Positions 1,398-25,000 of a stretch of DNA of 25,000 nucleotides are shown piece after piece. Position numbers and translations under genes: made by a program. Positions within the stretch are counted from its first letter, which is position 1. The number at the start of each line of letters is the position of its first letter. The stretch comes from Utricularia gibba (lineage: Eukaryota > Streptophyta > Magnoliopsida > Lamiales > Lentibulariaceae): positions 1 through 25,000 of the forward strand of contig NEEC01000383.1 of the NCBI GenBank assembly GCA_002189035.1, written 5' to 3'. Below the pieces are notes generated by a model. The model was not told the origin of the DNA. It saw only the letters and a program-made list of their open reading frames with translations, and did no database searches.

Positions 1398-1408
1398 GTA
1401 TGGCGTCC

Positions 1409-1431: not shown

Positions 1432-1508
1432 ACCAATGCCCGGGCGGAGCGGGCCAACGAACGAGATGGCGATGCTGCGTGCGCACGACGCTCATCGCCC
1501 GTGCTCGC

Positions 1509-1533
1509 GGAATCGATTATAGCATGCTGAGGA
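1509..1533 (+). other. AT island ATCGATTATAGCATGC, reference copy
   Basis: GGAATCGATTATAGCATGCTGAGG is, apart from the A elements, the only AT-rich stretch in the unit and shows no change in any of the 27 units up to GCATGCTG. It contains the palindromes ATCGAT and GCATGC. The TATAG followed by GAGG loosely recalls a polymerase I start region, but it does not fit the plant TATA-G-run consensus. Confidence 0.55.
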
Positions 1534-1568
1534 CCGCGCGGGCATGGCGCGCGGGACGGCGTAGCGGT

Positions 1569-1591
1569 GCCGAGCGCACGGGACGCTCGGC
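1569..1591 (+). repeat. 8-bp hairpin immediately upstream of A1, reference copy
   Basis: Stem GCCGAGCG with CGCTCGGC around the 7-base loop CACGGGA. It ends 11 bases before A1. Standard units keep it, though unit 11 has lost the TG just before it and so one outer pair. It is absent where L1-L4 precede A1, so A1 occurs with two different upstream contexts. Confidence 0.75.
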
Positions 1592-1602
1592 GCGCCCGCG
1601 AC

Positions 1603-3776: not shown

Positions 3777-4955
3777 AAAAGTCACGCTTTTTTCGACATT
3801 TCGATGTCCACTGCCGTCACCCAAGTTTTGGCATGTTCTCCCTTCTTGAGGGGGGAGGTGTCTCTGGAGGCACTGGGCCCACCCTCAGGGTGCCATGTGG
3901 CCCACCGAAAAAAGTCACGCTTTTTTCGACATTTGGATGTCCAGTGCCGTCACCTAGGTTTTGGCATGTTCTCCCTTCTTGAGGGGGGAGGTGTCCTGGA
4001 GGCACCGGGCCCACCCTCTGGGGCCCTTGTGGCCCCGGCGTGCGGACGTGGAGGGGTGGGTTCCCCCTCAAGTTGGTCGAGCATGCGCGGGGAATGACTC
4101 GCGCAGGACGCCCGCACGCACGCCCCGCTCGAGCATGCGCGAACGGTCACTCGATCGGGACGCTCGCCCTAGTAACGGCTCGCTCGAGCATGCGCGGGGC
4201 GGTGACTCGCGCGGGAGTGTCCGCGACGCGCCATGCTCGCCATGCGCGGGGCGCGGCGATACGGTGATCGGGGGTGGCGCATCGAGAAACCGTGGGAATC
4301 AGCACGCCGCGGCATGGTGGAGCGGGTGATGCGCAAGAGCGAGGGGGTGCGGAAGCACCCCCACGCGCGCGCGCGCGCCTTAGCCTTAGCCTTTGCCGAC
4401 GGCCGACGGACGACGCGCGCGCGCGGTATGGCGTCCGGGGAGGGGCGGGTTCCCCCTCCCACCAATGCCCGGGCGGAGCGGGCCAACGAACGAGATGCGA
4501 TGCTGCGTGCGCACGACGCTCATCGCCCGTGCTCGCGGAATCGATTATAGCATGCTGAGGACCGCGCGGGCATGGCGCGCGGGACGGCGTAGCGGTGCGT
4601 GCCCGCACGCCTTGCTCGAGCATGCGCGGGGAATGTCTCGCGCGGACGGGCGTCCGCACGCCATGCGTGGGCGGTGACTCGCCATGGACGCCCGCCCGCA
4701 CGCCTTGCTCGAGCATGCGCGGGGAATGTCTCTCGCCATGCTCGAGCATGCGCGGGGAATGACTGCTCGGACATGGGAATCTTGCTTGGCGGGCAGGACG
4801 CCCCCCCGCACGCCATGATCGAACATGCGCGGGGATGGCCTACGCCGTGCTCGAGCATTGACTCGCGCGGGACGCCTCGATGCGCGCGCTTGCGCGGATG
4901 ACCCGCGCGGGCATGATGGCGCTGCGGTCGCAAGGGACGCTCGGCGCGCTCGTGC
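3777..4955 (+). repeat. Repeat unit 4 (1179 bp), extended by block L3
   Basis: Standard A1, A2, B and C with private losses GCATGCGCGAACGG and GAGATGCGATGC. It shares GAATCAGCACGCC with unit 5 only. Block L3 follows GTAGCGGTGC. Confidence 0.97.
4599..4955 (+). repeat. Eroded subrepeat block L3
   Basis: It starts like L2 (GTGCCCGCACGCCTTGCTCG) and ends like it (GCGCGCTCGTGC), but is about 150 bp shorter. Several internal segments are missing from the middle of monomers, for example GAATGTCTCTCGCCATGCTC and GAATGACTGCTCGGACATGG. A short run with no counterpart in L1 or L2, GGAATCTTGCTTGGCGGGC, lies at 4777-4795. The remaining pieces keep the L2 order, so L3 looks like L2 with many internal deletions. 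Confidence 0.8.
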
Positions 4956-5805
4956 AAAAGTCACGCTTTTTTCGACATTTGGATGTGCAGTGCCGCCACC
5001 TCCATTTTGGCATGATCTCCCTTCTTGAGGGGGAGGTGTCTCTGGAGGCACTGGGCCCACCCTCAGGGTGCCATGTGGCCCACCGAAAAAAGTCACGCTT
5101 TTTTCGACATTTGGATGTCCAGTGCCGTCACCTAGGTTTTGGCATGTTCTCCCTTCTTGAGGGGGAGGTGTCCTGGAGGCACCGGGCCCACCCTCTGGGG
5201 CCCTTGTGGCCCCGGCGTGCGGACGTGGAGGGTGGGTTCCCCCTCAAGTTGGTCGAGCATGCGCGGGGAATGACTCGCGCAGGACGCCCGCACGCACGCC
5301 CCGCTCGAGCATGCGCGGAACGGTCACTCGATCGGGACGCTCGCCCTAGTAACGGCTCGCTCGAGCATGCGCGGGCGGTGACTCGCGCGGGAGTGTCCGC
5401 GACGCGCCATGCTCGCCATGCGCGGGCGCGGCGATACGGTGATCGGGGGTGGCGCATCGAGAAACCGTGGGAATCAGCACGCCGCGGCATGGTGGGAGCG
5501 GGTGATGCGCAAGAGCGAGGGGGTGCGGAAGCACCCCCACGCGCGCGCGCGCGCCTTAGCCTTAGCCTTTGCCGACGGCCGACGGACGACGCGCGCGCGC
5601 GGTATGGCGTCCGGGGAGGGCGGGTTCCCCCTCCCACCAATGCCCGGGCGGAGCGGGCCAACGAACGAGATGGCGATGCTGCGTGCGCACGACGCTCATC
5701 GCCCGTGCTCGCGGAATCGATTATAGCATGCTGAGGACCCGCGGGCATGGCGCGCGGGACGGCGTAGCGGTGCCGAGCGCACGGGACGCTCGGCGCGCCC
5801 GCGAC
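4956..5805 (+). repeat. Repeat unit 5 (850 bp), A1b variant
   Basis: A1b form. Carries GTGGAGGGTGGG (shared with units 9 and 10), GCGGGCGCGGCG (shared with 10, 11 and 22) and GGTGGGAGCGG (shared with 10). The distal part reads GAGGACCCGCGGGC. Confidence 0.97.
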
Positions 5806-6660
5806 AAAAGTCACGCTTTTTTCGACATTTCGATGTCCACTGCCGTCACCCAAGTTTTGGCATGTTCTCCCTTCTTGAGGGGGGAGGTGTCTCTGGAGGC
5901 ACTGGGCCCACCCTCAGGGTGCCATGTGGCCCACCGAAAAAAGTCACGCTTTTTTCGACATTTGGATGTCCAGTGCCGTCACCTAGGTTTTGGCATGTTC
6001 TCCCTTCTTGAGGGGGGAGGTGTCCTGGAGGCACCGGGCCCACCCTCTGGGGCCCTTGTGGCCCCGGCGTGCGGACGTGGAGGGGTGGGTTCCCCCTCAA
6101 GTTGGTCGAGCATGCGCGGGGAATGACTCGCGCAGGACGCCCGCACGCACGCCCCGCTCGAGCATGCGCGGAACGGTCACTCGATCGGGACGCTCGCCCT
6201 AGTAACGGCTCGCTCGAGCATGCGCGGGGCGGTGACTCGCGCGGGAGTGTCCGCGACGCGCCATGCTCGCCATGCGCGGGGCGCGGCGATACGGTGATCG
6301 GGGTGGCGCATCGAGAAACCGTGGGAATCAGGCACGCCGCGGCATGGTGGAGCGGGTGATGCGCAAGAGCGAGGGGGTGCGGAAGCACCCCCACGCGCGC
6401 GCGCGCGCCTTAGCCTTAGCCTTTGCCGACGGCCGACGGACGACGCGCCGCGCGCGTATGGCGTCCGGGGAGGGGCGGGTTCCCCCTCCCACCAATGCCC
6501 GGCGGAGCGGGCCAACGAACGAGATGGCGATGCTGCGTGCGCACGACGCTCATCGCCCGTGCTCGCGGAATCGATTATAGCATGCTGAGGACCGCGCGGG
6601 CATGGCGCGCGGGACGGCGTAGCGGTGCCGAGCGCACGGGACGCTCGGCGCGCCCGCGAC
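5806..6660 (+). repeat. Repeat unit 6 (855 bp)
   Basis: Standard form with six-G runs in both A elements. Private second CG tract GACGCGCCGCGCGCGTATGG. TGCCCGGCGGAGCG is shared with unit 22. Confidence 0.97.
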
Positions 6661-7621
6661 AAAAGTCACGCTTTTTTCGACATTTCGATGTCCACTGCCG
6701 TCACCCAAGTTTTGGCATGTTCTCCCTTCTTGAGGGGGGAGGTGTCTCTGGAGGCACTGGGCCCACCCTCAGGGTGCCATGTGGCCCACCGAAAAAAGTC
6801 ACGCTTTTTTCGACATTTGGATGTCCAGTGCCGTCACCTAGGTTTTGGCATGTTCTCCCTTCTTGAGGGGGGAGGTGTCCTGGAGGCACCGGGCCCACCC
6901 TCTGGGGCCCTTGTGGCCCCGGCGTGTGGACGTGGAGGTGGTTCCCCCTCAAGTTGGTCGAGCATGCGCGGGGAATGACTCGCGCAGGACGCCCGCACGC
7001 ACGCCCCGCTCGAGCATGCGCGGAACGGTCACTCGATCGGGACGCTCGCCCTAGTAACGGCTCGCTCGAGCATGCGCGGGGCGGTGACTCGCGCGGGAGT
7101 GTCGCGACGCGCCATGCTCGCCATGCGCGGGGCGCGGCGATACGGTGATCGGGGTGGCGCATCGAGAAACCGTGGGAATCAGGCACGCCGCGGCATGGTG
7201 GAGCGGGTGATGCGCAAGAGCGAGGGGTGCGGAAGCACCCCCACGCGCGCGCGCGCGCCTTAGCCTTAGCCTTTGCCGACGGCCGACGGACGACGCGCGC
7301 GCGCGGTATGGCGTCCGGGGAGGGGCGGGTTCCCCCTCCCACCAATGCCCGGGCGGAGCGGGCCAACGAACGAGATGGCGATGCTGCGTGCGCACGACGC
7401 TCATCGCCCGTGCTCGCGGAATCGATTATAGCATGCTGGCATCGTAGCGGTGCAAAGCATAGACGCACGCCAGACTCGCCATAATTGTCATGCTCGAGCA
7501 TGCGCCTCAATATGTCTCATGCTCATATGATCGAACATGCGCGGTCGCGCGGACGCACGCCGTGCTCGAGCATTCGCGCGGGACAGCGACCCGCGCGGGC
7601 ATGGCGAACGCGCGCAAGGGA
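6661..7621 (+). repeat. Repeat unit 7 (961 bp), extended by block L4
   Basis: The A-B spacer is altered (GCGTGTGGACGTGGAGGTGG), with a C-to-T change and a loss. One B monomer reads GAGTGTCGCGACGCG. The hairpin has one G fewer. After CATGCTG (7438) the unit departs abruptly into L4. Confidence 0.97.
7439..7621 (+). repeat. Strongly eroded subrepeat block L4
   Basis: It retains recognisable fragments in L2 order: GTAGCGGTGC, CATGCTCGAGCATGCGC, ATGATCGAACATGCGCGG, GCCGTGCTCGAGCAT, GACCCGCGCGGGCATGGCG and CGCGCAAGGG. Between them are AT-richer scraps such as GCCATAATTGTCATGC and CTCAATATGTCTCATGC. About two thirds of the L2 length is absent. The following A1 is a mixture of the two A1 forms. Confidence 0.75.
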
Positions 7622-8474
7622 AAAAGTCACGCTTTTTTCGACATTTCGATGTGCTGCCGTCACCCCATTTTGGCATGTTCTCCCTTCTTGAGGGGGGAGG
7701 TGTCTCTGGAGGCACTGGGCCCACCCTCAGGGTGCCATGTGGCCCACCGAAAAAAGTCACGCTTTTTTCGACATTTGGATGTCCAGTGCCGTCACCTAGG
7801 TTTTGGCATGTTCTCCCTTCTTGAGGGGGGAGGTGTCCTGGAGGCACCGGGCCCACCCTCTGGGGCCCTTGTGGCCCCGGCGTGCGGACGTGGAGGGGTG
7901 GGTTCCCCCTCAAGTTGGTCGAGCATGCGCGGGAATGACTCGCGCAGGACGCCCGCACGCACGCCCCGCTCGAGCATGCGCGGAACGGTCACTCGATCGG
8001 GACGCTCGCCCTAGTAACGGCTCGCTCGAGCATGCGCGGGGCGGTGACTCGCGCGGGAGTGTCCGCGACGCGCCATGCTCGCCATGCGCGGGGCGCGGCG
8101 ATACGGTGATCGGGGGTGGCGCATCGAGAAACCGTGGGAATCAGGCACGCCGCGGCATGGTGGAGCGGGTGATGCGCAAGAGCGAGGGGGTGCGGAAGCA
8201 CCCCCACGCGCGCGCGCGCGCGCCTTAGCCTTAGCCTTTGCCGACGGCCGACGGACGACGCGCGCGCGCGGTATGGCGTCCGGGGAGGGCGGGTTCCCCT
8301 CCCACCAATGCCCGGGCGGAGCGGGCCAACGAACGAGATGGCGATGCTGCGTGCGCACGACGCTCATCGCCCGTGCTCGCGGAATCGATTATAGCATGCT
8401 GAGGACCGCGCGGGCATGGCGCGCGGGACGGCGTAGCGGTGCCGAGCGCACGGGACGCTCGGCGCCGCCGCGAC
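7622..8474 (+). repeat. Repeat unit 8 (853 bp), mixed A1
   Basis: A1 reads TTTCGATGTGCTGCCGTC then CACCCCATTTTGGCATGTTC: part standard form (TTTCGATGT, GTTC), part b form (CCATTTTGG). GCGCGGGAATGAC is shared with unit 22. The CG tract is the longest seen in the array, and the end reads GGCGCCGCCGCGAC. Confidence 0.97.
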
Positions 8475-9325
8475 AAAAGTCACGCTTTTTTCGACATTTC
8501 GATGTCCACTGCCGTCACCCAAGTTTTGGCATGTTCTCCCTTCTTGAGGGGGAGGTGTCTCTGGAGGCACTGGCCCACCCTCAGGGTGCCATGTGGCCCA
8601 CCGAAAAAAGTCACGCTTTTTTCGACATTTGGATGTCCAGTGCCGTCACCTAGGTTTTGGCATGTTCTCCCTTCTTGAGGGGGAGGTGTCCTGGAGGCAC
8701 CGGGCCCACCCTCTGGGGCCCTTGTGGCCCCGGCGTGCGGACGTGGAGGGTGGGTTCCCCCTCAAGTTGGTCGAGCATGCGCGGGGAATGACTCGCGCAG
8801 GACGCCCGCACGCACGCCCCGCTCGAGCATGCGCGGAACGGTCACTCGATCGGACGCTCGCCCTAGTAACGGCTCGCTCGAGCATGCGCGGGGCGGTGAC
8901 TCGCGCGGGAGTGTCCGCGACGCGCCATGCTCGCCATGCGCGGGGCGCGGCGATACGGTGATCGGGGTGGCGCATCGAGAAACCGTGGGAATCAGGCACG
9001 CCGCGGCATGGTGGAGCGGGTGATGCGCAAGAGCGAGGGGGTGCGGAAGCACCCCCACGCGCGCGCGCGCGCCTTAGCCTTAGCCTTTGCCGACGGCCGA
9101 CGGACGACGCGCGCGCGCGGTATGGCGTCCGGGGAGGGGCGGGTTCCCCCTCCCACCAATGCCCGGGCGGAGCGGGCCAACGAACGAGATGGCGATGCTG
9201 CGTGCGCACGACGCTCATCGCCCGTGCTCGCGGAATCGATTATAGCATGCTGAGGACCGCGCGGGCATGGCGCGCGGGACGGCGTAGCGGTGCCGAGCGC
9301 ACGGGACGCTCGGCGCGCCCGCGAC
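8475..9325 (+). repeat. Repeat unit 9 (851 bp)
   Basis: A1 with GCACTGGCCCACC. The loss in GATCGGACGCTCG is shared only with unit 23. GTGGAGGGTGGG is shared with units 5 and 10. Confidence 0.97.
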
Positions 9326-10171
9326 AAAAGTCACGCTTTTTTCGACATTTCGATGTCCACTGCCGTCACCCAAGTTTTGGCATGTTCTCCCTTCTTGAGG
9401 GGGAGGTGTCTCTGGAGGCACTGGGCCCACCCTCAGGGTGCCATGTGGCCCACCGAAAAAAGTCACGCTTTTTTCGACATTTGGATGTCCAGTGCCGTCA
9501 CCTAGGTTTTGGCATGTTCTCCCTTCTTGAGGGGGAGGTGTCCTGGAGGCACCGGGCCCACCCTCTGGGCCCTTGTGGCCCCGGCGTGCGGACGTGGAGG
9601 GTGGGTTCCCCCTCAAGTTGGTCGAGCATGCGCGGGGAATGACTCGCGCAGGACGCCCGCACGCACGCCCCGCTCGAGCATGCGCGGAACGGTCACTCGA
9701 TCGGGACGCTCGCCCTAGTAACGGCTCGCTCGAGCATGCGCGGGGCGGTGACTCGCGCGGGAGTGTCCGCGACGCGCCATGCTCGCCATGCGCGGGCGCG
9801 GCGATACGGTGATCGGGGGTGGCGCATCGAGAAACCGTGGGAATCAGGCACGCCGCGGCATGGTGGGAGCGGTGATGCGCAAGAGCGAGGGGGTGCGGAA
9901 GCACCCCCACGCGCGCGCGCGCGCCTTAGCCTTAGCCTTTGCCGACGGCCGACGGACGACGCGCGCGCGCGGTATGGCGTCCGGGGAGGGCGGGTTCCCC
10001 CTCCCACCAATGCCCGGGCGGAGCGGGCCAACGAACGAGATGGCGATGCTGCGTGCGCACGACGCTCATCGCCCGTGCTCGCGGAATCGATTATAGCATG
10101 CTGAGGACCGCGCGGGCGCGCGGGACGGCGTAGCGGTGCCGAGCGCACGGGACGCTCGGCGCGCCCGCGAC
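9326..10171 (+). repeat. Repeat unit 10 (846 bp)
   Basis: The shortest complete unit. CTCTGGGCCCTTG is shared with units 13 and 20, GGTGGGAGCGG with unit 5, and GGAGCGGTGATG-type loss with unit 11. The distal part lost CATGG (GCGCGGGCGCGCGGGACGG). Confidence 0.97.
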
Positions 10172-11023
10172 AAAAGTCACGCTTTTTTCGACATTTCGAT
10201 GTCCACTGCCGTCACCCAAGTTTTGGCATGTTCTCCCTTCTTGAGGGGGAGGTGTCTCTGGAGGCACTGGGCCCACCCTCAGGGTGCCATGTGGCCCACC
10301 GAAAAAAGTCACGCTTTTTTCGACATTTGGATGTCCAGTGCCGTCACCTAGGTTTTGGCATGTTCTCCCTTCTTGAGGGGGGAGGTGTCCTGGAGGCACC
10401 GGGCCCACCCTCTGGGGCCCTTGTGGCCCCGGCGTGCGGACGTGGAGGGGTGGGTTCCCCCTCAAGTTGGTCGAGCATGCGCGGGGAATGACTCGCGCAG
10501 GACGCCCGCACGCACGCCCCGCTCGAGCATGCGCGGAACGGTCACTCGATCGGGACGCTCGCCCTAGTAACGGCTCGCTCGAGCATGCGCGGGGCGGTGA
10601 CTCGCGCGGGAGTGTCCGCGACGCGCCATGCTCGCCATGCGCGGGCGCGGCGATACGGTGATCGGGGGTGGCGCATCGAGAAACCGTGGGAATCAGGCAC
10701 GCCGCGGCATGGTGGAGCGGTGATGCGCAAGAGCGAGGGGGTGCGGAAGCACCCCCACGCGCGCGCGCGCGCCTTAGCCTTAGCCTTTGCCGACGGCCGA
10801 CGGACGACGCGCGCGCGCGGTATGGCGTCCGGGGAGGGGCGGGTTCCCCCTCCCACCAATGCCCGGGCGGAGCGGGCCAACGAACGAGATGGCGATGCTG
10901 CGTGCGCACGACGCTCATCGCCCGTGCTCGCGGAATCGATTATAGCATGCTGAGGACCGCGCGGGCATGGCGCGCGGGACGGCGTAGCGGCCGAGCGCAC
11001 GGGACGCTCGGCGCGCCCGCGAC
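10172..11023 (+). repeat. Repeat unit 11 (852 bp)
   Basis: Shares GCGGGCGCGGCG and GAGCGGTGATG with neighbouring unit 10. The pre-A1 region reads GTAGCGGCCGAGCGC, having lost TG. Confidence 0.97.
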
Positions 11024-11876
11024 AAAAGTCACGCTTTTTCGACATTTCGATGTCCACTGCCGTCACCCAAGTTTTGGCATGTTCTCCCTTCTTGAGGGGG
11101 GAGGTGTCTCTGGAGGCACGGGCCCACCCTCAGGGTGCCATGTGGCCCACCGAAAAAAGTCACGCTTTTTTCGACATTTGGATGTCCAGTGCCGTCACCT
11201 AGGTTTTGGCATGTTCTCCCTTCTTGAGGGGGGTGTCCTGGAGGCACCGGGCCCACCCTCTGGGGCCCTTGTGGCCCCGGCCGGCGGCGTGCGGACGTGG
11301 GGTGGGTTCCCCCTCAAGTTGGTCGAGCATGCGGGGAATGACTCGCGCAGGACGCCCGCACGCACGCCCCGCTCGAGCATGCGCGGAACGGTCACTCGAT
11401 CGGGACGCTCGCCCTAGTAACGGCTCGCTCGAGCATGCGCGGGGCGGTGACTCGCGCGGGAGTGTCCGCGACGCGCCATGCTCGCCATGCGCGGGGCGCG
11501 GCGATACGGTGATCGGGGGTGGCGCATCGAGAAACCGTGGGAATCAGGCACGCCGCGGCATGGTGGAGCGGGTGATGCGCAAGAGCGAGGGGGTGCGGAA
11601 GCACCCCCACGCGCGCCGCGCGCGCCTTAGCCTTAGCCTTTGCCGACGGCCGACGGACGACGCGCGCGCGCGGTATGGCGTCCGGGGAGGGGCGGGTTCC
11701 CCCTCCCACCAATGCCCGGGCGGAGCGGGCCAACGAACGAGATGGCGATGCTGCGTGCGCACGACGCTCATCGCCCGTGCTCGCGGAATCGATTATAGCA
11801 TGCTGAGGACCGCGCGGGCATGGCGCGGGACGGCGTAGCGGTGCCGAGCGCACGGGACGCTCGGCGCGCCCGCGAC
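11024..11876 (+). repeat. Repeat unit 12 (853 bp), the most altered standard unit
   Basis: It combines several private changes: A1 T run reduced to five, GAGGCACGGGCCC, A2 lacking GAGG in TTGAGGGGGGTGTCC, a gain in the A-B spacer (GGCCCCGGCCGGCGGCG at 11273-11289) followed by GTGGGGTGGG, a first B core reduced to GAGCATGCGGGGAATG, and CG tract break GCGCGCCGCGCGC. Losses and gains nearly cancel, leaving normal length. Confidence 0.97.
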
Positions 11877-12730
11877 AAAAGTCACGCTTTTTTCGACATT
11901 TCGATGTCCACTGCCGTCACCCAAGTTTTGGCATGTTCTCCCTTCTTGAGGGGGGGAGGTGTCTCTGGAGGCACTGGGCCCACCCTCGGGTGCCATGTGG
12001 CCCACCGAAAAAAGTCACGCTTTTTTCGACATTTGGATGTCCAGTGCCGTCACCTAGGTTTTGGCATGTTCTCCCTTCTTGAGGGGGGAGGTGTCCTGGA
12101 GGCACCGGGCCCACCCTCTGGGCCCTTGTGGCCCCGGCGTGCGGACGTGGAGGGGTGGGTTCCCCCTCAAGTTGGTCGAGCATGCGCGGGGAATGACTCG
12201 CGCAGGACGCCCCGCACGCACGCCCCGCTCGAGCATGCGCGGAACGGTCACTCGATCGGGACGCTCGCCCTAGTAACGGCTCGCTCGAGCATGCGCGGGG
12301 CGGTGACTCGCGCGGGAGTGTCCGCGACGCGCCATGCTCGCCATGCGCGGGGCGCGGCGATACGGTGATCGGGGGTGGCGCATCGAGAAACCGTGGGAAT
12401 CAGGCACGCCGCGGCATGGTGGAGCGGGTGATGCGCAAGAGCGAGGGGTGCGGAAGCACCCCCACGCGCGCGCGCGCGCCTTAGCCTTAGCCTTTGCCGA
12501 CGGCCGACGGACGACGCGCGCGCGCGGTATGGCGTCCGGGAGGGGCGGGTTCCCCCTCCCACCAATGCCCGGGCGGAGCGGGCCAACGAACGAGATGGCG
12601 ATGCTGCGTGCGCACGACGCTCATCGCCCGTGCTCGCGGAATCGATTATAGCATGCTGAGGACCGCGCGGGCATGGCGCGCGGGACGGCGTAGCGGTGCC
12701 GAGCGCACGGGACGCTCGGCGCGCCGCGAC
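11877..12730 (+). repeat. Repeat unit 13 (854 bp)
   Basis: A1 has a seven-G run and CCCTCGGGTGCC, the latter shared with unit 24. CGTCCGGGAGGGGCGG is shared with units 22 and 27. One B spacer has four Cs (GACGCCCCGCACG). Confidence 0.97.
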
Positions 12731-13581
12731 AAAAGTCACGCTTTTTTCGACATTTCGATGTCCACTGCCGTCACCCAAGTTTTGGCATGTTCTCCCTTCT
12801 TGAGGGGGAGGTGTCTCTGGAGGCACTGGGCCCACCCTCAGGGTGCCATGTGGCCCACCGAAAAAAGTCACGCTTTTTTTCGACATTTGGATGTCCAGTG
12901 CCGTCACCTAGGTTTTGGCATGTTCTCCCTTCTTGAGGGGGAGGTGTCCTGGAGGCACCGGGCCCACCCTCTGGGGCCCTTGTGGCCCCGGCGTGCGGAC
13001 GTGGAGGGGTGGGTTCCCCTCAAGTTGGTCGAGCATGCGCGGGGAATGACTCGCGCAGGACGCCCGCACGCACGCCCCGCTCGAGCATGCGCGGAACGGT
13101 CACTCGATCGGGACGCTCGCCCTAGTAACGGCTCGCTCGAGCATGCGCGGGGCGGTGACTCGCGCGGGAGTGTCCGCGACGCGCCATGCTCGCCATGCGC
13201 GGGGCGCGGCGATACGGTGATCGGGGGTGGCGCATCGAGAAACCGTGGGAATCAGGCACGCGCGGCATGGTGGAGCGGGTGATGCGCAAGAGCGAGGGGG
13301 TGCGGAAGCACCCCCACGCGCGCGCGCGCGCCTTAGCCTTAGCCTTTGCCGACGGCCGACGGACGACGCGCGCGCGCGGTATGGCGTCCGGGGAGGGGCG
13401 GGTTCCCCCCCCACCAATGCCCGGGCGGAGCGGGCCAACGAACGAGATGGCGATGCTGCGTGCGCACGACGCTCATCGCCCGTGCTCGCGGAATCGATTA
13501 TAGCATGCTGAGGACCGCGCGGGCATGGCGCGCGGGACGGCGTAGCGGTGCCGAGCGCACGGGACGCTCGGCGCCCGCGAC
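12731..13581 (+). repeat. Repeat unit 14 (851 bp)
   Basis: The A2 T run is seven rather than six. GGCACGCGCGGCATGG and CTCGGCGCCCGCG are private. The run TTCCCCCCCACC, lacking the usual T, is shared with unit 26. Confidence 0.97.
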
Positions 13582-14435
13582 AAAAGTCACGCTTTTTTCG
13601 ACATTTCGATGTCACTGCCGTCACCCAAGTTTTGGCATGTTCTCCCTTCTTGAGGGGGGAGGTGTCTCTGGAGGCACTGGGCCCACCCTCAGGGTGCCAT
13701 GTGGCCCACCGAAAAAAGTCACGCTTTTTTCGACATTTGGATGTCCAGTGCCGTCACCTAGGTTTTGGCATGTTCTCCTTCTTGAGGGGGAGGTGTCCTG
13801 GAGGCACCGGGCCCACCCTCTGGGGCCCTTGTGGCCCCGGCGTGCGGACGTGGAGGGGTGGGTTCCCCTCAAGTTGGTCGAGCATGCGCGGGGAATGACT
13901 CGCGCAGGACGCCCGCACGCACGCCCCGCTCGAGCATGCGCGGAACGGTCACTCGATCGGGACGCTCGCCCTAGTAACGGCTCGCTCGAGCATGCGCGGG
14001 GCGGTGACTCGCGCGGGAGTGTCCGCGACGCGCCATGCTCGCCATGCGCGGGGCGCGGCGATACGGTGATCGGGGGTGGCGCATCGAGAAACCGTGGGAA
14101 TCAGGCACCGCCGCGCATGGTGGAGCGGGTGATGCGCAAGAGCGAGGGGGTGCGGAAGCACCCCCACGCGCGCGCGCGCGCCTTAGCCTTAGCCTTTGCC
14201 GACGGCCGACGGACGACGCGCGCGCGCGGGTATGGCGTCCGGGGAGGGGCGGGTTCCCCCTCCCACCAATGCCCGGGCGGAGCGGGCCAACGAACGAGAT
14301 GGCGATGCTGCGTGCGCACGACGCTCATCGCCCGTGCTCGCGGAATCGATTATAGCATGCTGAGGACCGCGCGGGCATGGCGCGCGGGACGGCGTAGCGG
14401 TGCCGAGCGCACGGGACGCTCGGCGCGCCCGCGAC
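13582..14435 (+). repeat. Repeat unit 15 (854 bp)
   Basis: A1 reads GATGTCACTGCC. A2 has GTTCTCCTTC (one C lost). GGCACCGCCGCGCATGG is private, with the CCGCGCATGG part shared with unit 18. Confidence 0.97.
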
Positions 14436-15287
14436 AAAAGTCACGCTTTTTTCGACATTTCGATGTCCACTGCCGTCACCCAAGTTTTGGCATGTTCTCC
14501 TTCTTGAGGGGGGAGTGTCTCTGGAGGCACTGGGCCCACCCTCAGGGTGCCATGTGGCCCACCGAAAAAAGTCACGCTTTTTTCGACATTTGGATGTCCA
14601 GTGCCGTCACCTAGGTTTTGGCATGTTCTCCCTTCTTGAGGGGGGAGGTGTCCTGGAGGCACCGGGCCCACCCTCTGGGGCCCTTGTGGCCCCGGCGTGC
14701 GGACGTGGAGGGGTGGGTTCCCCTCAAGTTGGTCGAGCATGCGCGGGGAATGACTCGCGCAGGACGCCCGCACGCACGCCCCGCTCGAGCATGCGCGGAA
14801 CGGTCACTCGATCGGGACGCTCGCCCTAGTAACGGCTCGCTCGAGCATGCGCGGGGCGGTGACTCGCGCGGGAGTGTCCGCGACGCGCCATGCTCGCCAT
14901 GCGCGGGGCGCGGCGATACGGTGATCGGGGTGGCGCATCGAGAAACCGTGGGAATCAGGCACGCCGCGGCATGGTGGAGCGGGTGATGCGCAAGAGCGAG
15001 GGGGTGCGGAAGCACCCCCACGCGCGCGCGCGCGCCTTAGCCTTAGCCTTTGCCGACGGCCGACGGACGACGCGCGCGCGCGGTATGGCGTCCGGGGAGG
15101 GGCGGGTTCCCCCTCCCACCAATGCCCGGGCGGAGCGGGCCAACGAACGAGATGGCGATGCTGCGTGCGCACGACGCTCATCGCCCGTGCTCGCGGAATC
15201 GATTATAGCATGCTGAGGACCGCGCGGGCATGGCGCGCGGACGGCGTAGCGGTGCCGAGCGCACGGGACGCTCGGCGCGCCCGCGAC
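14436..15287 (+). repeat. Repeat unit 16 (852 bp)
   Basis: A1 reads GTTCTCCTTC and GGGGGGAGTGTC, losing one C and one G. GATCGGGGTGG form; GCGCGCGGACGGCG before the distal hairpin. Confidence 0.97.
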
Positions 15288-16141
15288 AAAAGTCACGCTT
15301 TTTTCGACATTTCGATGTCCACTGCCGTCACCCAAGTTTTGGCATGTTCTCCCTTCTTGAGGGGGGAGGTGTCTCTGGAGGCACTGGGCCCACCCTCAGG
15401 GTGCCATGTGGCCCACCGAAAAAAGTCACGCTTTTTTCGACATTTGGATGTCCAGTGCCGTCACCTAGGTTTTGGCATGTTCTCCCTTCTTGAGGGGGGA
15501 GGTGTCCTGGAGGCACCGGGCCCACCCTCTGGGGCCCTTGTGGCCCGGCGTGCGGACGTGGAGGGGTGGGTTCCCCTCAAGTTGGTCGAGCATGCGCGGG
15601 GAATGACTCGCGCAGGACGCCCGCACGCACGCCCCGCTCGAGCATGCGCGGAACGGTCACTCGATCGGGACGCTCGCCCTAGTAACGGCTCGCTCGAGCA
15701 TGCGCGGGGCGGTGACTCGCGCGGGAGTGTCCGCGACGCGCCATGCTCGCCATGCGCGGGGCGCGGCGATACGGTGATCGGGGGTGGCGCATCGAGAAAC
15801 CGTGGGAATCAGGCACGCCGCGGCATGGTGGAGCGGGTGATGCGCAAGAGCGAGGGGTGCGGAAGCACCCCCACGCGCGCGCGCGCGCCTTAGCCTTAGC
15901 CTTTGCCGACGGCCGACGGACGACGCGCGCGCGCGGTATGGCGTCCGGGGAGGGGCGGGTTCCCCCTCCCACCAATGCCCGGGCGGAGCGGGCCAACGAA
16001 CGAGATGGCGATGCTGCGTGCGCACGACGCTCATCGCCCGTGCTCGCGGAATCGATTATAGCATGCTGAGGACCGCGCGGGCATGGCGCGCGGGACGGCG
16101 TAGCGGTGCCGAGCGCACGGGACGCTCGGCGCGCCCGCGAC
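15288..16141 (+). repeat. Repeat unit 17 (854 bp)
   Basis: TTGTGGCCCGGCG (three Cs) is shared only with unit 19. GGTTCCCCTCAAG has four Cs, and the hairpin has one G fewer. Confidence 0.97.
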
Positions 16142-16995
16142 AAAAGTCACGCTTTTTTCGACATTTCGATGTCCACTGCCGTCACCCAAGTTTTGGCATG
16201 TTCTCCCTTCTTGAGGGGGGAGGTGTCTCTGGAGGCACTGGGCCCACCCTCAGGGTGCCATGTGGCCCACCGAAAAAAGTCACGCTTTTTTCGACATTTG
16301 GATGTCCAGTGCCGTCACCTAGGTTTTGGCATGTTCTCCCTTCTTGAGGGGGGAGGTGTCCTGGAGGCACCGGGCCCACCCTCTGGGGCCCTTGTGGCCC
16401 CGGCGTGCGGACGTGGAGGGGTGGGTTCCCCCTCAAGTTGGTCGAGCATGCGCGGGGAATGACTCGCGCAGGACGCCCGCACGCACGCCCCGCTCGAGCA
16501 TGCGCGGAACGGTCACTCGATCGGGACGCTCGCCCTAGTAACGGCTCGCTCGAGCATGCGCGGGGCGGTGACTCGCGCGGGAGTGTCCGCGACGCGCCAT
16601 GCTCGCCATGCGCGGGGCGCGGCGATACGGTGATCGGGGGTGGCGCATCGAGAAACCGTGGGAATCAGGCACGCCGCGCATGGTGGAGCGGGTGATGCGC
16701 AAGAGCGAGGGGGTGCGGAAGCACCCCCACGCGCGCGCGCGCGCCTTAGCCTTAGCCTTTGCCGACGGCCGACGGACGACGCGCGCGCGCGGTATGGCGT
16801 CCGGGGAGGGCGGGTTCCCCTCCCACCAATGCCCGGGCGGAGCGGGCCAACGAACGAGATGGCGATGCTGCGTGCGCACGACGCTCATCGCCCGTGCTCG
16901 CGGAATCGATTATAGCATGCTGAGGACCGCGCGGGCATGGCGCGCGGGACGGCGTAGCGGTGCCGAGCGCACGGGACGCTCGGCGCGCCCGCGAC
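16142..16995 (+). repeat. Repeat unit 18 (854 bp)
   Basis: Near consensus. CGCCGCGCATGG is partly shared with unit 15. The G/C inverted repeat is shortened on both arms (GGGCGGGTTCCCCTCCC), as in unit 8. Confidence 0.97.
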
Positions 16996-17847
16996 AAAAG
17001 TCACGCTTTTTTCGACATTTCGATGTCCACTGCCGTCACCCAAGTTTTGGCATGTTCTCCCTTCTTGAGGGGGAGGTGTCTCTGGAGGCACTGGGCCCAC
17101 CCTCAGGGTGCCATGTGGCCCACCGAAAAAAGTCACGCTTTTTTCGACATTTGGATGTCCAGTGCCGTCACCTAGGTTTTGGCATGTTCTCCCTTCTTGA
17201 GGGGGGAGGTGTCCTGGAGGCACCGGGCCCACCCTCTGGGGCCCTTGTGGCCCGGCGTGCGGACGTGGAGGGGTGGGTTCCCCCTCAAGTTGGTCGAGCA
17301 TGCGCGGGGAATGACTCGCGCAGGACGCCCGCACGCACGCCCGCTCGAGCATGCGCGGAACGGTCACTCGATCGGGACGCTCGCCCTAGTAACGGCTCGC
17401 TCGAGCATGCGCGGGGCGGTGACTCGCGCGGGAGTGTCCGCGACGCGCCATGCTCGCCATGCGCGGGGCGCGGCGATACGGTGATCGGGGGTGGCGCATC
17501 GAGAAACCGTGGGAATCAGGCACGCCGCGGCATGGTGGAGCGGGTGATGCGCAAGAGCGAGGGGGTGCGGAAGCACCCCCACGCGCGCGCGCGCGCCTTA
17601 GCCTTAGCCTTTGCCGACGGCCGACGGACGACGCGCGCGCCGCGTATGGCGTCCGGGGAGGGGCGGGTTCCCCCTCCCACCAATGCCCGGGCGGAGCGGG
17701 CCAACGAACGAGATGGCGATGCTGCGTGCGCACGACGCTCATCGCCCGTGCTCGCGGAATCGATTATAGCATGCTGAGGACGCGCGGGCATGGCGCGCGG
17801 ACGGCGTAGCGGTGCCGAGCGCACGGGACGCTCGGCGCGCCCGCGAC
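16996..17847 (+). repeat. Repeat unit 19 (852 bp)
   Basis: CACGCACGCCCGCTCG (one C lost) is shared only with unit 21. TTGTGGCCCGGCG is shared with unit 17. The second CG tract is altered (GCGCGCGCCGCGTATGG), and the distal part reads GAGGACGCGCGGGC. Confidence 0.97.
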
Positions 17848-18701
17848 AAAAGTCACGCTTTTTTCGACATTTCGATGTCCACTGCCGTCACCCAAGTTTT
17901 GGCATGTTCTCCCTTCTTGAGGGGGGAGGTGTCTCTGGAGGCACTGGGCCCACCCTCAGGGTGCCATGTGGCCACCGAAAAAAGTCACGCTTTTTTCGAC
18001 ATTTGGATGTCCAGTGCCGTCACCTAGGTTTTGGCATGTTCTCCCTTCTTGAGGGGGGGAGGTGTCCTGGAGGCACCGGGCCCACCCTCTGGGCCCTTGT
18101 GGCCCCGGCGTGCGGACGTGGAGGGGTGGGTTCCCCCTCAAGTTGGTCGAGCATGCGCGGGGAATGACTCGCGCAGGACGCCCGCACGCACGCCCCGCTC
18201 GAGCATGCGCGGAACGGTCACTCGATCGGGACGCTCGCCCTAGTAACGGCTCGCTCGAGCATGCGCGGGCGGTGACTCGCGCGGAGTGTCCGCGACGCGC
18301 CATGCTCGCCATGCGCGGGCGCGCGGCGATACGGTGATCGGGGGTGGCGCATCGAGAAACCGTGGGAATCAGGCACGCCGCGGCATGGTGGAGCGGGTGA
18401 TGCGCAAGAGCGAGGGGGTGCGGAAGCACCCCCACGCGCGCGCGCGCGCCTTAGCCTTAGCCTTTGCCGACGGCCGACGGACGACGCGCGCGCGCGGTAT
18501 GGCGTCCGGGGAGGGGCGGGTTCCCCTCCCACCAATGCCCGGGCGGAGCGGGCCAACGAACGAGATGGCGATGCTGCGTGCGCACGACGCTCATCGCCCG
18601 TGCTCGCGGAATCGATTATAGCATGCTGAGGACCGCGCGGGCATGGCGCGCGGGACGGCGTAGCGGTGCCGAGCGCACGGGACGCTCGGCGCGCCCGCGA
18701 C
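17848..18701 (+). repeat. Repeat unit 20 (854 bp)
   Basis: Carries two adjacent losses, GCGGGCGGTGACTCG and GCGCGGAGTGTCC, that recur together only in unit 22. A2 has a seven-G run. A1 ends GTGGCCACCG with one C lost, and the fourth B core reads GCGGGCGCGCGGCG. Confidence 0.97.
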
Positions 18702-19556
18702 AAAAGTCACGCTTTTTTCGACATTTCGATGTCCACTGCCGTCACCCAAGTTTTGGCATGTTCTCCCTTCTTGAGGGGGGAGGTGTCTCTGGAGGCACTG
18801 GGCCCACCCTCAGGGTGCCATGTGGCCCACCGAAAAAAGTCACGCTTTTTTCGACATTTGGATGTCCAGTGCCGTCACCTAGGTTTTGGCATGTTCTCCC
18901 TTCTTGAGGGGGAGGTGTCCTGGAGGCACCGGGCCCACCCTCTGGGGCCCTTGTGGCCCCGGCGTGCGGACGTGGAGGGGTGGGTTCCCCCTCAAGTTGG
19001 TCGAGCATGCGCGGGGAATGACTCGCGCAGGACGCCCGCACGCACGCCCGCTCGAGCATGCGCGGAACGGTCACTCGATCGGGACGCTCGCCCTAGTAAC
19101 GGCTCGCTCGAGCATGCGCGGGGCGGTGACTCGCGCGGGAGTGTCCGCGACGCGCCATGCTCGCCATGCGCGGGGCGCGGCGATACGGTGATCGGGGGTG
19201 GCGCATCGAGAAACCGTGGGAATCAGGCACGCCGCGGCATGGTGGAGCGGGTGATGCGCAAGAGCGAGGGGGTGCGGAAGCACCCCCACGCGCGCGCGCG
19301 CGCCTTAGCCTTAGCCTTTGCCGACGGCCGACGGACGACGCGCGCGCGCGGTATGGCGTCCGGGGAGGGGCGGGTTCCCCCTCCCACCAATGCCCGGGCG
19401 GAGCGGGCCAACGAACGAGATGGCGATGCTGCGTGCGCACGACGCTCATCGCCCGTGCTCGCGGAATCGATTATAGCATGCTGAGGACCGCGCGGGCATG
19501 GCGCGCGGGACGGCGTAGCGGTGCCGAGCGCACGGGACGCTCGGCGCGCCCGCGAC
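18702..19556 (+). repeat. Repeat unit 21 (855 bp)
   Basis: Near consensus apart from CACGCACGCCCGCTCG, shared with unit 19 two units upstream. Confidence 0.97.
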
Positions 19557-20405
19557 AAAAGTCACGCTTTTTTCGACATTTCGATGTCCACTGCCGTCAC
19601 CCAAGTTTTGGCATGTTCTCCCTTCTTGAGGGGGGAGGTGTCTCTGGAGGCACTGGGCCCACCCTCAGGGTGCCATGTGGCCCACCGAAAAAAGTCACGC
19701 TTTTTTCGACATTTGGATGTCCAGTGCCGTCACCTAGGTTTTGGCATGTTCTCCCTTCTTGAGGGGGGAGGTGTCCTGGAGGCACCGGGCCCACCCTCTG
19801 GGGCCCTTGTGGCCCCGGCGTGCGGACGTGGAGGGGTGGGTTCCCCCTCAAGTTGGTCGAGCATGCGCGGGAATGACTCGCGCAGGACGCCCGCACGCAC
19901 GCCCCGCTCGAGCATGCGCGGAACGGTCACTCGATCGGGACGCTCGCCCTAGTAACGGCTCGCTCGAGCATGCGCGGGCGGTGACTCGCGCGGAGTGTCC
20001 GCGACGCGCCATGCTCGCCATGCGCGGGCGCGGCGATACGGTGATCGGGGGTGGCGCATCGAGAAACCGTGGGAATCAGGCACGCCGCGGCATGGTGGAG
20101 CGGGTGATGCGCAAGAGCGAGGGGGTGCGGAAGCACCCCCACGCGCGCGCGCGCGCCTTAGCCTTAGCCTTTGCCGACGGCCGACGGACGACGCGCGCGC
20201 GGTATGGCGTCCGGGAGGGGCGGGTTCCCCCTCCCACCAATGCCCGGCGGAGCGGGCCAACGAACGAGATGGCGATGCTGCGTGCGCACGACGCTCATCG
20301 CCCGTGCTCGCGGAATCGATTATAGCATGCTGAGGACCGCGCGGGCATGGCGCGCGGGACGGCGTAGCGGTGCCGAGCGCACGGGACGCTCGGCGCGCCC
20401 GCGAC
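19557..20405 (+). repeat. Repeat unit 22 (849 bp)
   Basis: Shares the paired losses GCGGGCGGTG and GCGCGGAGTGTCC with unit 20. It also has GCGCGGGAATGAC (as unit 8), CGTCCGGGAGGGGCGG (as 13 and 27) and TGCCCGGCGGAGC (as 6), so it looks mosaic. Confidence 0.97.
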
Positions 20406-21257
20406 AAAAGTCACGCTTTTTTCGACATTTCGATGTCCACTGCCGTCACCCAAGTTTTGGCATGTTCTCCCTTCTTGAGGGGGGAGGTGTCTCTGGAGGC
20501 ACTGGGCCCACCCTCAGGGTGCCATGTGGCCCACCGAAAAAAGTCACGCTTTTTTCGACATTTGGATGTCCAGTGCCGTCACCTAGGTTTTGGCATGTTC
20601 TCCCTTCTTGAGGGGGAGGTGTCCTGGAGGCACCGGGCCCACCCTCTGGGGCCCTTGTGGCCCCGGCGTGCGGACGTGGAGGGGTGGGTTCCCCCTCAAG
20701 TTGGTCGAGCATGCGCGGGGAATGACTCGCGCAGGACGCCCGCACGCACGCCCCGCTCGAGCATGCGCGGAACGGTCACTCGATCGGACGCTCGCCCTAG
20801 TAACGGCTCGCTCGAGCATGCGCGGGGCGGTGACTCGCGCGGGAGTGTCCGCGACGCGCCATGCTCGCCATGCGCGGGGCGCGGCGATACGGTGATCGGG
20901 GTGGCGCATCGAGAAACCGTGGGAATCAGGCACGCCGCGGCATGGTGGAGCGGGTGATGCGCAAGAGCGAGGGGTGCGGAAGCACCCCCACGCGCGCGCG
21001 CGCGCCTTAGCCTTAGCCTTTGCCGACGGCCGACGGACGACGCGCGCGCGCGGTATGGCGTCCGGGGAGGGCGGGTTCCCCCTCCCACCAATGCCCGGGC
21101 GGAGCGGGCCAACGAACGAGATGGCGATGCTGCGTGCGCACGACGCTCATCGCCCGTGCTCGCGGAATCGATTATAGCATGCTGAGGACCGCGCGGGCAT
21201 GGCGCGCGGGACGGCGTAGCGGTGCCGAGCGCACGGGACGCTCGGCGCGCCCGCGAC
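20406..21257 (+). repeat. Repeat unit 23 (852 bp)
   Basis: GATCGGACGCTCG is shared with unit 9, fourteen units away. The hairpin has one G fewer. Confidence 0.97.
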
Positions 21258-22110
21258 AAAAGTCACGCTTTTTTCGACATTTCGATGTCCACTGCCGTCA
21301 CCCAAGTTTTGGCATGTTCTCCCTTCTTGAGGGGGGAGGTGTCTCTGGAGGCACTGGGCCCACCCTCGGGTGCCATGTGGCCCACCGAAAAAAGTCACGC
21401 TTTTTTCGACATTTGGATGTCCAGTGCCGTCACCTAGGTTTTGGCATGTTCTCCCTTCTTGAGGGGGGAGGTGTCCTGGAGGCACCGGGCCCACCCTCTG
21501 GGGCCCTTGTGGCCCCGGCGTGCGGACGTGGAGGGGTGGGTTCCCCCTCAAGTTGGTCGAGCATGCGCGGGGAATGACTCGCGCAGGACGCCCGCACGCA
21601 CGCCCCGCTCGAGCATGCGCGGAACGGTCACTCGATCGGGACGCTCGCCCTAGTAACGGCTCGCTCGAGCATGCGCGGGGCGGTGACTCGCGCGGGAGTG
21701 TCCGCGACGCGCCATGCTCGCCATGCGCGGGGCGCGGCGATACGGTGATCGGGGTGGCGCATCGAGAAACCGTGGGAATCAGGCACGCCGCGGCATGGTG
21801 GAGCGGGTGATGCGCAAGAGCGAGGGGTGCGGAAGCACCCCCACGCGCGCGCGCGCGCCTTAGCCTTAGCCTTTGCCGACGGCCGACGGACGACGCGCGC
21901 GCGCGGTATGGCGTCCGGGGAGGGGCGGGTTCCCCTCCCACCAATGCCCGGGCGGAGCGGGCCAACGAACGAGATGGCGATGCTGCGTGCGCACGACGCT
22001 CATCGCCCGTGCTCGCGGAATCGATTATAGCATGCTGAGGACCGCGCGGGCATGGCGCGCGGGACGGCGTAGCGGTGCCGAGCGCACGGGACGCTCGGCG
22101 CGCCCGCGAC
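21258..22110 (+). repeat. Repeat unit 24 (853 bp)
   Basis: A1 has CCCTCGGGTGCC, as in unit 13. The hairpin has one G fewer, and the C run in the G/C inverted repeat is four. Confidence 0.97.
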
Positions 22111-22962
22111 AAAAGTCACGCTTTTTTCGACATTTCGATGTCCACTGCCGTCACCCAAGTTTTGGCATGTTCTCCCTTCTTGAGGGGGAGGTGTCTCTGG
22201 AGGCACTGGGCCCACCCTCAGGGTGCCATGTGGCCCACCGAAAAAAGTCACGCTTTTTTCGACATTTGGATGTCCAGTGCCGTCACCTAGGTTTTGGCAT
22301 GTTCTCCCTTCTTGAGGGGGAGGTGTCCTGGAGGCACCGGGCCCACCCTCTGGGGCCCTTGTGGCCCCGGCGTGCGGACGTGGAGGGGTGGGTTCCCCTC
22401 AAGTTGGTCGAGCATGCGCGGGGAATGACTCGCGCAGGACGCCCGCACGCACGCCCCGCTCGAGCATGCGCGGAACGGTCACTCGATCGGGACGCTCGCC
22501 CTAGTAACGGCTCGCTCGAGCATGCGCGGGCGGTGACTCGCGCGGGAGTGTCCGCGACGCGCCATGCTCGCCATGCGCGGGGCGCGGCGATACGGTGATC
22601 GGGGTGGCGCATCGAGAAACCGTGGGAATCAGGCACGCCGCGGCATGGTGGAGCGGGTGATGCGCAAGAGCGAGGGGGTGCGGAAGCACCCCCACGCGCG
22701 CGCGCGCGCCTTAGCCTTAGCCTTTGCCGACGGCCGACGGACGACGCGCGCGCGCGGTATGGCGTCCGGGGAGGGGCGGGTTCCCCCTCCCACCAATGCC
22801 CGGGCGGAGCGGGCCAACGAACGAGATGGCGATGCTGCGTGCGCACGACGCTCATCGCCCGTGCTCGCGGAATCGATTATAGCATGCTGAGGACCGCGCG
22901 GGCATGGCGCGCGGGACGGCGTAGCGGTGCCGAGCGCACGGGACGCTCGGCGCGCCCGCGAC
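22111..22962 (+). repeat. Repeat unit 25 (852 bp)
   Basis: Last unit with a consensus A1 (CCCTCAGGGTGCCATGTGG). Five-G runs in both A elements; GCGGGCGGTG in the third B core. Confidence 0.97.
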
Positions 22963-23814
22963 AAAAGTCACGCTTTTTTCGACATTTCGATGTCCACTGC
23001 CGTCACCCAAGTTTTGGCATGTTCTCCCTTCTTGAGGGGGAGGTGTCTCTGGAGGCACCGGGCCCACCCTCGGTCGCCATGTGGCCCACCGAAAAAAGTC
23101 ACGCTTTTTTCGACATTTGGATGTCCAGTGCCGTCACCTAGGTTTTGGCATGTTCTCCCTTCTTGAGGGGGGAGGTGTCCTGGAGGCACCGGGCCCACCC
23201 TCTGGGGCCCTTGTGGCCCCGGCGTGCGGACGTGGAGGGGTGGGTTCCCCTCAAGTTGGTCGAGCATGCGCGGGGAATGACTCGCGCAGGACGCCCGCAC
23301 GCACGCCCCGCTCGAGCATGCGCGGAACGGTCACTCGATCGGGACGCTCGCCCTAGTAACGGCTCGCTCGAGCATGCGCGGGGCGGTGACTCGCGCGGGA
23401 GTGTCCGCGACGCGCCATGCTCGCCATGCGCGGGGCGCGGCGATACGGTGATCGGGGGTGGCGCATCGAGAAACCGTGGGAATCAGGCACGCCGCGGCAT
23501 GGTGGAGCGGGTGATGCGCAAGAGCGAGGGGGTGCGGAAGCACCCCCACGCGCGCGCGCGCGCCTTAGCCTTAGCCTTTGCCGACGGCCGACGGACGACG
23601 CGCGCGCGCGGTATGGCGTCCGGGGAGGGCGGGTTCCCCCCCCACCAATGCCCGGGCGGAGCGGGCCAACGAACGAGATGGCGATGCTGCGTGCGCACGA
23701 CGCTCATCGCCCGTGCTCGCGGAATCGATTATAGCATGCTGAGGACCGCGCGGGCATGGCGCGCGGGACGGCGTAGCGGTGCCGAGCGCACGGGACGCTC
23801 GGCGCGCCCGCGAC
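22963..23814 (+). repeat. Repeat unit 26 (852 bp), first with edge-type A1
   Basis: A1 changes to GGCACCGGGCCCACC and CCTCGGTCGCCATGTGG. The TCGCCATG form is absent from units 1-25 and persists in every later A1. The rest of the unit is near consensus, with TTCCCCCCCACC as in unit 14. Confidence 0.97.
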
Positions 23815-24667
23815 AAAAGTCACGCTTTTTTCGACATTTCGATGTCCACTGCCGTCACCCAAGTTTTGGCATGTTCTCCCTTCTTGAGGGGGAGGTGTCT
23901 CTGGAGGCACTGGGCCACCCTCGGGTCGCCATGTGGCCCACCGAAAAAAGTCACGCTTTTTTCGACATTTGGATGTCCAGTGCCGTCACCTAGGTTTTGG
24001 CATGTTCTCCCTTCTTGAGGGGGAGGTGTCCTGGAGGCACCGGGCCCACCCTCTGGGGCCCTTGTGGCCCCGGCGTGCGGACGTGGAGGGGTGGGTTCCC
24101 CCTCAAGTTGGTCGAGCATGCGCGGGGAATGACTCGCGCAGGACGCCCGCACGCACGCCCCGCTCGAGCATGCGCGGAACGGTCACTCGATCGGGACGCT
24201 CGCCCTAGTAACGGCTCGCTCGAGCATGCGCGGGGCGGTGACTCGCGCGGGAGTGTCCGCGACGCGCCATGCTCGCCATGCGCGGGGCGCGGCGATACGG
24301 TGATCGGGGGTGGCGCATCGAGAAACCGTGGGAATCAGGCACGCCGCGGCATGGTGGAGCGGGTGATGCGCAAGAGCGAGGGGGTGCGGAAGCACCCCCA
24401 CGCGCGCGCGCGCGCCTTAGCCTTAGCCTTTGCCGACGGCCGACGGACGACGCGCGCGCGCGGTATGGCGTCCGGGAGGGGCGGGTTCCCCCTCCCACCA
24501 ATGCCCGGGCGGAGCGGGCCAACGAACGAGATGGCGATGCTGCGTGCGCACGACGCTCATCGCCCGTGCTCGCGGAATCGATTATAGCATGCTGAGGACC
24601 GCGCGGGCATGGCGCGCGGGACGGCGTAGCGGTGCCGAGCGCACGGGACGCTCGGCGCGCCCGCGAC
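23815..24667 (+). repeat. Repeat unit 27 (853 bp), edge-type A1
   Basis: A1 reads CACTGGGCCACCCTCGG then GTCGCCATGTGG. The A2, B and C regions are near consensus, with CGTCCGGGAGGGGCGG. Last complete unit. Confidence 0.97.
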
Positions 24668-24795
24668 AAAAGTCACGCTTTTTTCGACATTTCGATGTCC
24701 ACTGCCGTCACCCAAGTTTTGGCATGTTCTCCCTTCTTGAGGGGGAGGTGTCTCTGGAGGCCCGGCCCCCCCTCGGGTCGCCATGTGGCCCACCG
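24668..24795 (+). repeat. Terminal A1 element, divergent
   Basis: The front half is standard. The end has diverged furthest of any A1: GGAGGCCCGGCCCCCCC followed by TCGGGTCGCCATGTGG. It continues the drift begun in unit 26. Confidence 0.9.
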
Positions 24796-24880
24796 AAAAA
24801 AGTCACGCTTTTTTCGACATTTTGATGTCCGGTGCCGCCACCTGGGTTTTGGCATGTTCTCCCTTCTTGAGGGGGAGGTG
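24796..24880 (+). promoter_or_regulatory. Terminal A2 element, candidate RNA polymerase I gene promoter
   Basis: It retains the inverted repeat AAAAAAG-TCACG-CTTTTTT, the TTTTGGCATGTTCTCCC box and the TTCTTGAGGGGGAGGTG end. It then leaves the repeat at about 24881, some 45 bp earlier than a full A2. It carries TTTTGATGTCCGG and GCCGCCACCTGGG; the latter matches only unit 0. In amphibian rDNA, spacer promoters repeat the gene promoter and the last copy precedes the transcribed region. This copy has that position and is therefore the best promoter candidate, with any start site probably near the TTGAGGGGGAGG stretch. No rRNA gene is visible to confirm it. Confidence 0.35.
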
Positions 24881-25000
24881 TTCCGAGGGGTGTACGGACG
24901 GGTCTGGTCGGGTCGCCCGCCCGCCACACCCGCAAGCTGGCGAGACGCGTATCCTATCGCGCACGGGGTTACTCCCCGATCCCGTGCGCGATCCGAGCCA
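24881..25000. other. Unique flank beyond the array, possibly start of the external transcribed spacer
   Basis: From TTCCGAGGGGTGTACGG onward nothing matches the repeat. The region is GC-rich, with pyrimidine/purine-skewed stretches (GGTCTGGTCGGGTCG, CCCGCCCGCC), and ends at the window edge. No start codon context, splice signal or rRNA sequence is recognisable in 120 bases. If the array is an rDNA spacer in left-to-right orientation this would be early transcribed spacer; otherwise it is ordinary flanking DNA. Confidence 0.5.
24956..24992 (+). repeat. 12-bp perfect inverted repeat in the unique flank
   Basis: ATCGCGCACGGG (24956-24967) pairs perfectly with CCCGTGCGCGAT (24981-24992) around a 13-base loop. 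A competing 5-bp hairpin, CGGGG-TTACT-CCCCG (24964-24978), uses part of the left arm, so the two folds exclude each other. It is the longest perfect stem I found outside simple CG tracts. Confidence 0.8.

Follow-up and report, generated by a model that had tools for sequence, protein, structure and literature searches.

We asked what the paired repeats of this locus represent, and whether they could be promoters of RNA polymerase I standing ahead of a ribosomal RNA gene, as the original prediction proposed. A blastn search of the window, the whole 25,000-base stretch of DNA analyzed, with the consensus of the repeated A element revealed 58 A elements, all of them on the + strand. They form an array (1-24881, + strand) of 28 A1-A2 pairs (749 to 24881), with one incomplete pair at its left end, made up of a cut A1 (1-50) and the leftmost A2 (53-167). 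The start-to-start distance from A1 to A2 was 130-133 bases (mean 132.0) in all 28 pairs, whether the unit was of standard or greater length. From A2 to the next A1 the distance was 714-723 bases in 24 of 27 cases and 828, 1046 and 1194 bases in the remaining three; unit length was 846-855 bases in 24 of the 27 complete units, the other three measuring 961, 1179 and 1326 bases. All three longer units, together with blocks of a 51-base repeat, were confined to the left third (1-7621), and from 7622 to 24667 every one of the 20 units measured 846-855 bases. GC content was 66-72% per kilobase across the array and the observed/expected ratio of CpG was 1.19, in keeping with rDNA spacers, which are often GC-rich. 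Counted over both strands, the GC-rich repeat contains 56 open reading frames of 150 amino acids or longer.

The A elements carry two boxes. One, TTTTGGCATGT, occurs 54 times in exact form on the + strand of the window, and the other, ACGCTTTTTT, 56 times; neither occurs on the - strand. Counted per element, with the cut A1 at 1-50 left out, TTTTGGCATGT is present in 25 of 28 A1 and 29 of 29 A2, and ACGCTTTTTT in 27 of 28 A1 and 29 of 29 A2. The three A1 without TTTTGGCATGT (at 749, 2929 and 4956), in which A replaces its last T, belong to one subtype, which reads GGCATGA instead of GGCATGT. The expectation that each unit holds two A elements with both boxes was thus borne out by the 28 pairs and the near-universal presence of the boxes. 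The figure of 54 promoter-like copies held for the exact box, but not for the A elements, which number 58. The A copies are amplification products, and counting them adds no independent evidence for a promoter.

At the right edge of the array, the last A1 (24668-24797, + strand) is 94.6% identical to the A consensus over 24668-24795, and the last A2 (24798-24881, + strand), whose right end is cut, is 91.7% identical to it over 84 bases. This edge copy is homologous to the other copies through GGGGGAGGTGT and then diverges from them, entering unique sequence at 24881/24882, 24 bases beyond the TTTTGGCATGT box. Compared with the common A2, it has four substitutions, all between the boxes (alignment columns 26-47); after column 47 the two are identical through GAGGTGT and unlike beyond it. 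The 119 bases that follow (24882-25000, + strand), a candidate start of the external transcribed spacer, matched nothing else in the window (1-24881) by blastn at E 0.01. Both blastn and alignment therefore agree with the earlier claim that the final A2 breaks off into unique DNA. The unique tail also contains a perfect inverted repeat with 12-base arms and a 13-base loop (24956-24992, + strand), an arm length that was reached in 0 of 1000 dinucleotide shuffles (shuffle maximum 11). A stem of 15 pairs is predicted at this position, but taken as a whole the fold of 24867-25000 was unremarkable (z of -0.42).

The repeated module extends to the left of A1. A block of ~70 bases upstream of the last A1, placed at 24598-24667 (+ strand) from the unit consensus, also precedes the A1 at 749 (677-744, 81.4% to the unit consensus by blastn) and the A1 at 2929 (2860-2924, 86.2%). 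Both of these A1 follow 51-base blocks, and the sequence before their upstream block differs from that of the standard unit. The block is found there despite the different flank, so the module of block, A1 and A2 occurs in two settings. For the A1 at 4956 and 7622, the blastn matches listed for the upstream sequence included none of at least 60 bases to the unit consensus. Across 23815-25000, every 20-base window with an AT content of 55% or more lay within or in contact with an A element, or fell at 24567-24600. The latter, roughly 70-100 bases upstream of A1, is the one AT-rich island in the last unit that is clear of the A elements. The sequence AATCGATTATAGCATG, which has 27 exact copies in the window, lies there and at the same place in other units.

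We consider the best explanation of this layout, probable by a modest measure, to be a set of polymerase I spacer promoters ahead of an rRNA gene. The window would then correspond to the 3' portion of an intergenic spacer, a very long one, of the nuclear ribosomal RNA genes, and each module of ~70 upstream bases, A1 and A2 would be a copy of the RNA polymerase I promoter. The gene promoter would be the copy at the array edge, which ends at 24881; the rRNA precursor would start from it at about 24867-24885, and 24882-25000 would be mostly transcribed leader. Within this reading the last A2 is the candidate gene core promoter and the last A1 a candidate for its upstream partner; a start near 24867 may be proposed for the last A2 from Xenopus spacing alone. 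By gathering UBF and SL1, the spacer copies, together with the 51-base repeats that separate some of them, would raise the loading of polymerase I on the gene promoter. The DNA itself shows the modules, all in one orientation and with a constant A1-A2 spacing, and it shows homology ending at 24881/24882; the rDNA identity, initiation by polymerase I, the start position and the enhancing role are inferred. The points counted in favor of polymerase I were the one-strand array, the spacing, the break in the last copy, the AT-rich windows, the GC and CpG content, an 11-base identity with Xenopus, the pattern of subtypes, the inverted repeat of the tail and the precedent of spacer promoters in other organisms. 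Counted against it were the lack of an Rfam family at gathering score, a Xenopus match of 11 bases that some shuffles also reach, weak clustering of invariant columns (permutation values of 0.15-0.32 over 57 copies), a start at 24867 that departs from the non-discriminating G(-16)/G(-7) rule, the absence of exact terminator words, and 51-base repeats unrelated to the last A1 and A2.

The comparison with Xenopus bears directly on this proposal. Aligned with the last 1186 bases, the 38-base Xenopus core gave as its best local match the 11-base TTTTGGCATGT, without extension; its score was at least equaled by 80 of 2000 dinucleotide shuffles when one strand was searched and by 69 of 1000 when both were. 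The caution in the original prediction that the box match was short and could be chance was well placed. The sequence link of the A elements to the Xenopus core is weak, and this match, the sole sequence argument for spacer promoters, is close to what chance yields. Polymerase I starts carry G at -16 and -7 as a rule. A start at 24867, as anchored by Xenopus, departs from this rule, and among 24860-24891 the positions that agree with it are 24885 and 24887; since agreement was found somewhere in 4930 of 5000 random stretches, the rule does not discriminate. In its layout, the array resembles the Xenopus laevis spacer in having promoter-like modules repeated on one strand with short repeats between some of them, in the entry of the last module into unique sequence, and in the shared 11-base TTTTGGCATGT. 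It differs in that the modules here are paired, with 28 complete A1-A2 pairs in about 24 kb, in that the match ends after 11 bases, and in that no rRNA gene was detected in the window. The 60/81-base enhancers of Xenopus are homologous to the upstream promoter region, whereas the 51-base repeats here have no homology to the last A1 or A2. The proposed Xenopus plan thus survives for the one-strand modules and the loss of homology in the last one, but not for the short repeats.

This lack of homology emerged when the 51-base consensus was scored against seven stretches with shuffles as control: its score was reached by 365 of 1000 shuffles for the last A1 and by 923 of 1000 for the last A2. For the block upstream of the last A1, one of the seven stretches, 22 of 1000 shuffles reached the score, compared with 116 of 1000 for the block upstream of the A1 at 749, 913 of 1000 for 24300-24560 and 51 of 1000 for the unique tail. 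None of 1000 did so for 24100-24290, where degenerate copies lie within the standard unit. Tandem Repeats Finder placed the 51-base blocks at 323-677 (6.9 copies) and at 2427-2868 (8.9 copies, inside the 1326-base unit), both on the + strand, and blastn to the unit consensus identified sequence of this type at 4574-4724 (+ strand, 72.9%) inside the 1179-base unit. The repeats at 323-677 and 2427-2868 carry the palindrome CATGCTCGAGCATG, with 4 exact copies in the window, and also CTCGAGCATGCGCGG, with 63 copies.

Repeated promoters within rDNA spacers have been described for Xenopus, Drosophila, rodents and plants in PMC5765358, which cites Moss and Birnstiel 1979 for the spacer promoters of Xenopus laevis. 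The array here would therefore join a known kind. In the Drosophila spacer, core promoters are duplicated, and activity is said to track the number of subrepeats with the promoter duplication (PMC1215480). The likeness to Drosophila, drawn from descriptions of the layout, lies in the many promoter-like copies in one spacer; the array here differs in being GC-rich with a unit of ~850 bases. The chicken spacer is reported to have just one promoter (PMC6815422), so that arrays of spacer promoters are not universal. The 47S and spacer promoters of mouse and human have two parts, with upstream and core elements precisely spaced (PMC5765358, PMC8863233). The contact length of a UBF dimer is given as 130-140 bases (PMC8863233) or 110-160 bases (PMC5765358), and UBF may join the upstream and core elements for SL1 (PMC8863233). 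The array has in common with mouse and human the two-part layout, its A1-A2 distance of 130-133 bases being near the UBF-dimer contact length, but in the accounts consulted those species have a spacer promoter and no array of dozens. On the strength of this spacing and of the known spacer promoters, we take A1-A2 to be a promoter module, possibly with upstream and core parts of similar sequence, and the last such module to be a candidate gene promoter; the reported UBF range is wide, so the fit of the spacing is weak evidence. The human and mouse cores matched the window no better than shuffles, 419 of 500 and 310 of 500 shuffles, respectively, reaching their scores. Across organisms, according to PMC5765358, polymerase I promoters have element spacing in common and sequence little or not at all. 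The accessible part of PMC5852592 contains nothing on promoters. A literature text search with pieces of the boxes and of the Xenopus core returned no title related to rDNA, and no listing in further literature searches was recognized as this spacer.

A rather unlikely alternative is a GC-rich satellite of the ordinary kind, built of nested subrepeats and with no relation to rRNA genes, whose end falls inside an A2 copy by chance. It is consistent with the Rfam search over all 25,000 bases, which detected no RNA family at gathering score, rRNA included, with the ARAGORN search, which detected no tRNA in the window, and with the box match near chance level. The 24 standard units, when aligned, had 109 of 874 variable columns, many of them through single-base indels in G/C runs, as in any homogenized array. 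Sequence relatives of the array were absent from exact-pattern scans of viral and prokaryotic contig collections, and blastn of 24100-25000 against plasmid and phage sequences gave no match; the collections being viral, plasmid, phage and prokaryotic, this absence says little about a eukaryote.

A satellite would also fit the distribution of invariant columns, whose clustering over the boxes is borderline at best. Over 57 copies of the A element (the cut A1 left out and the last A2 counted only up to the break), 28 of 125 columns varied by substitution. The longest invariant run was 19 columns, matched in 14.7% of permutations, and the fewest variable columns were 3 per 36 (17.8%) and 9 per 60 (32.5%). 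When each of the five subtypes was represented by a single sequence, the variable columns numbered 22 of 125, the longest invariant run was 28 (4.9% of permutations) and the fewest variable columns per 36 was 1 (5.7%); restricted to columns 0-86 (85 used, 12 variable), the same two values became 13.5% and 8.4%. Subtype differences fell in the alignment mainly between and after the boxes, a pattern borderline or non-significant by permutation, and gene conversion could yield the same invariant columns. Three features speak against a satellite: the last A2 breaks where a block with few changes ends, the A1-A2 spacing stays at 130-133 bases in standard and longer units, and the module of upstream block, A1 and A2 is present at 749 and 2929 behind different sequence.

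Alternatively, and quite improbably, the array could be an rDNA spacer whose A elements are terminators or replication-fork barriers rather than promoters, with the T6 tract and GACAT-N4-ATGTC bound by a TTF-I-like protein that halts polymerases or forks before the gene. The T6 tract is found in 5 of 5 A subtypes, and CGAAAAAAG-TCACG-CTTTTTTCG is the standard unit's best inverted repeat. The GACAT-N4-ATGTC palindrome is intact in 3 of 5 subtypes (common A1, common A2 and last A2), but broken in the other two, and the right edge breaks ~50 bases beyond it, not at it. Xenopus has GACTTGC as its T3 terminator word, and GGTCGAC and TCGACCAG are mammalian Sal-box words; none of these three exact words occurs on either strand of the window. 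By eye, TCGACATTTGGATGTCC resembles the mammalian Sal box, a likeness checked through these exact words and not relied on. RNA folds of three A elements were also little better than those of shuffles (z of -0.31, -0.45 and -1.61). Because these folds and that of the tail (z of -0.42, above) beat shuffles at most slightly, we set aside a structured-RNA reading; the exception is the perfect inverted repeat with 12-base arms in the tail. It is very improbable that the A elements are promoters of an array of repeated small-RNA genes, or of other genes read by polymerase II/III, although units of ~850 bases with one promoter-like pair each would fit this: the window has neither an Rfam family at gathering score nor a tRNA, and a loose threshold over 22900-25000 gave just seven weak miRNA/psaA matches (E 2 to 4.5), far below gathering scores.

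Returning to polymerase I spacer promoters as the preferred explanation, A1 and A2 might not be two promoters but together make up a single bipartite one, with A1 as its upstream element and A2 as its core; the two would derive from a tandem duplication and be held about one UBF-dimer footprint apart. We regard this further step as unlikely. If it is right, 27 complete bipartite spacer promoters precede the candidate gene promoter, the two halves of a polymerase I promoter are visibly the same sequence, and their likeness could explain the contact of SL1 with both. More generally, if the spacer-promoter explanation is true, the locus offers a natural series of dozens of near-identical spacer promoters plus a gene-proximal copy, which could test whether rRNA output is set by the number of spacer promoters, and whether the upstream and core parts of the polymerase I promoter have a common origin.

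Finally, the copies at the edges of the array have variants of their own. The leftmost A2 (53-167) and the rightmost A2 (24798-24881) have two variants in common (columns 41 and 47) that are absent from the other 27 A2, as though the array edges had escaped homogenization. The last three A1 (at 22963, 23815 and 24668; 22963-24797) have a TCG variant near their right end that is absent from the other 25 A1, a change towards the array edge.
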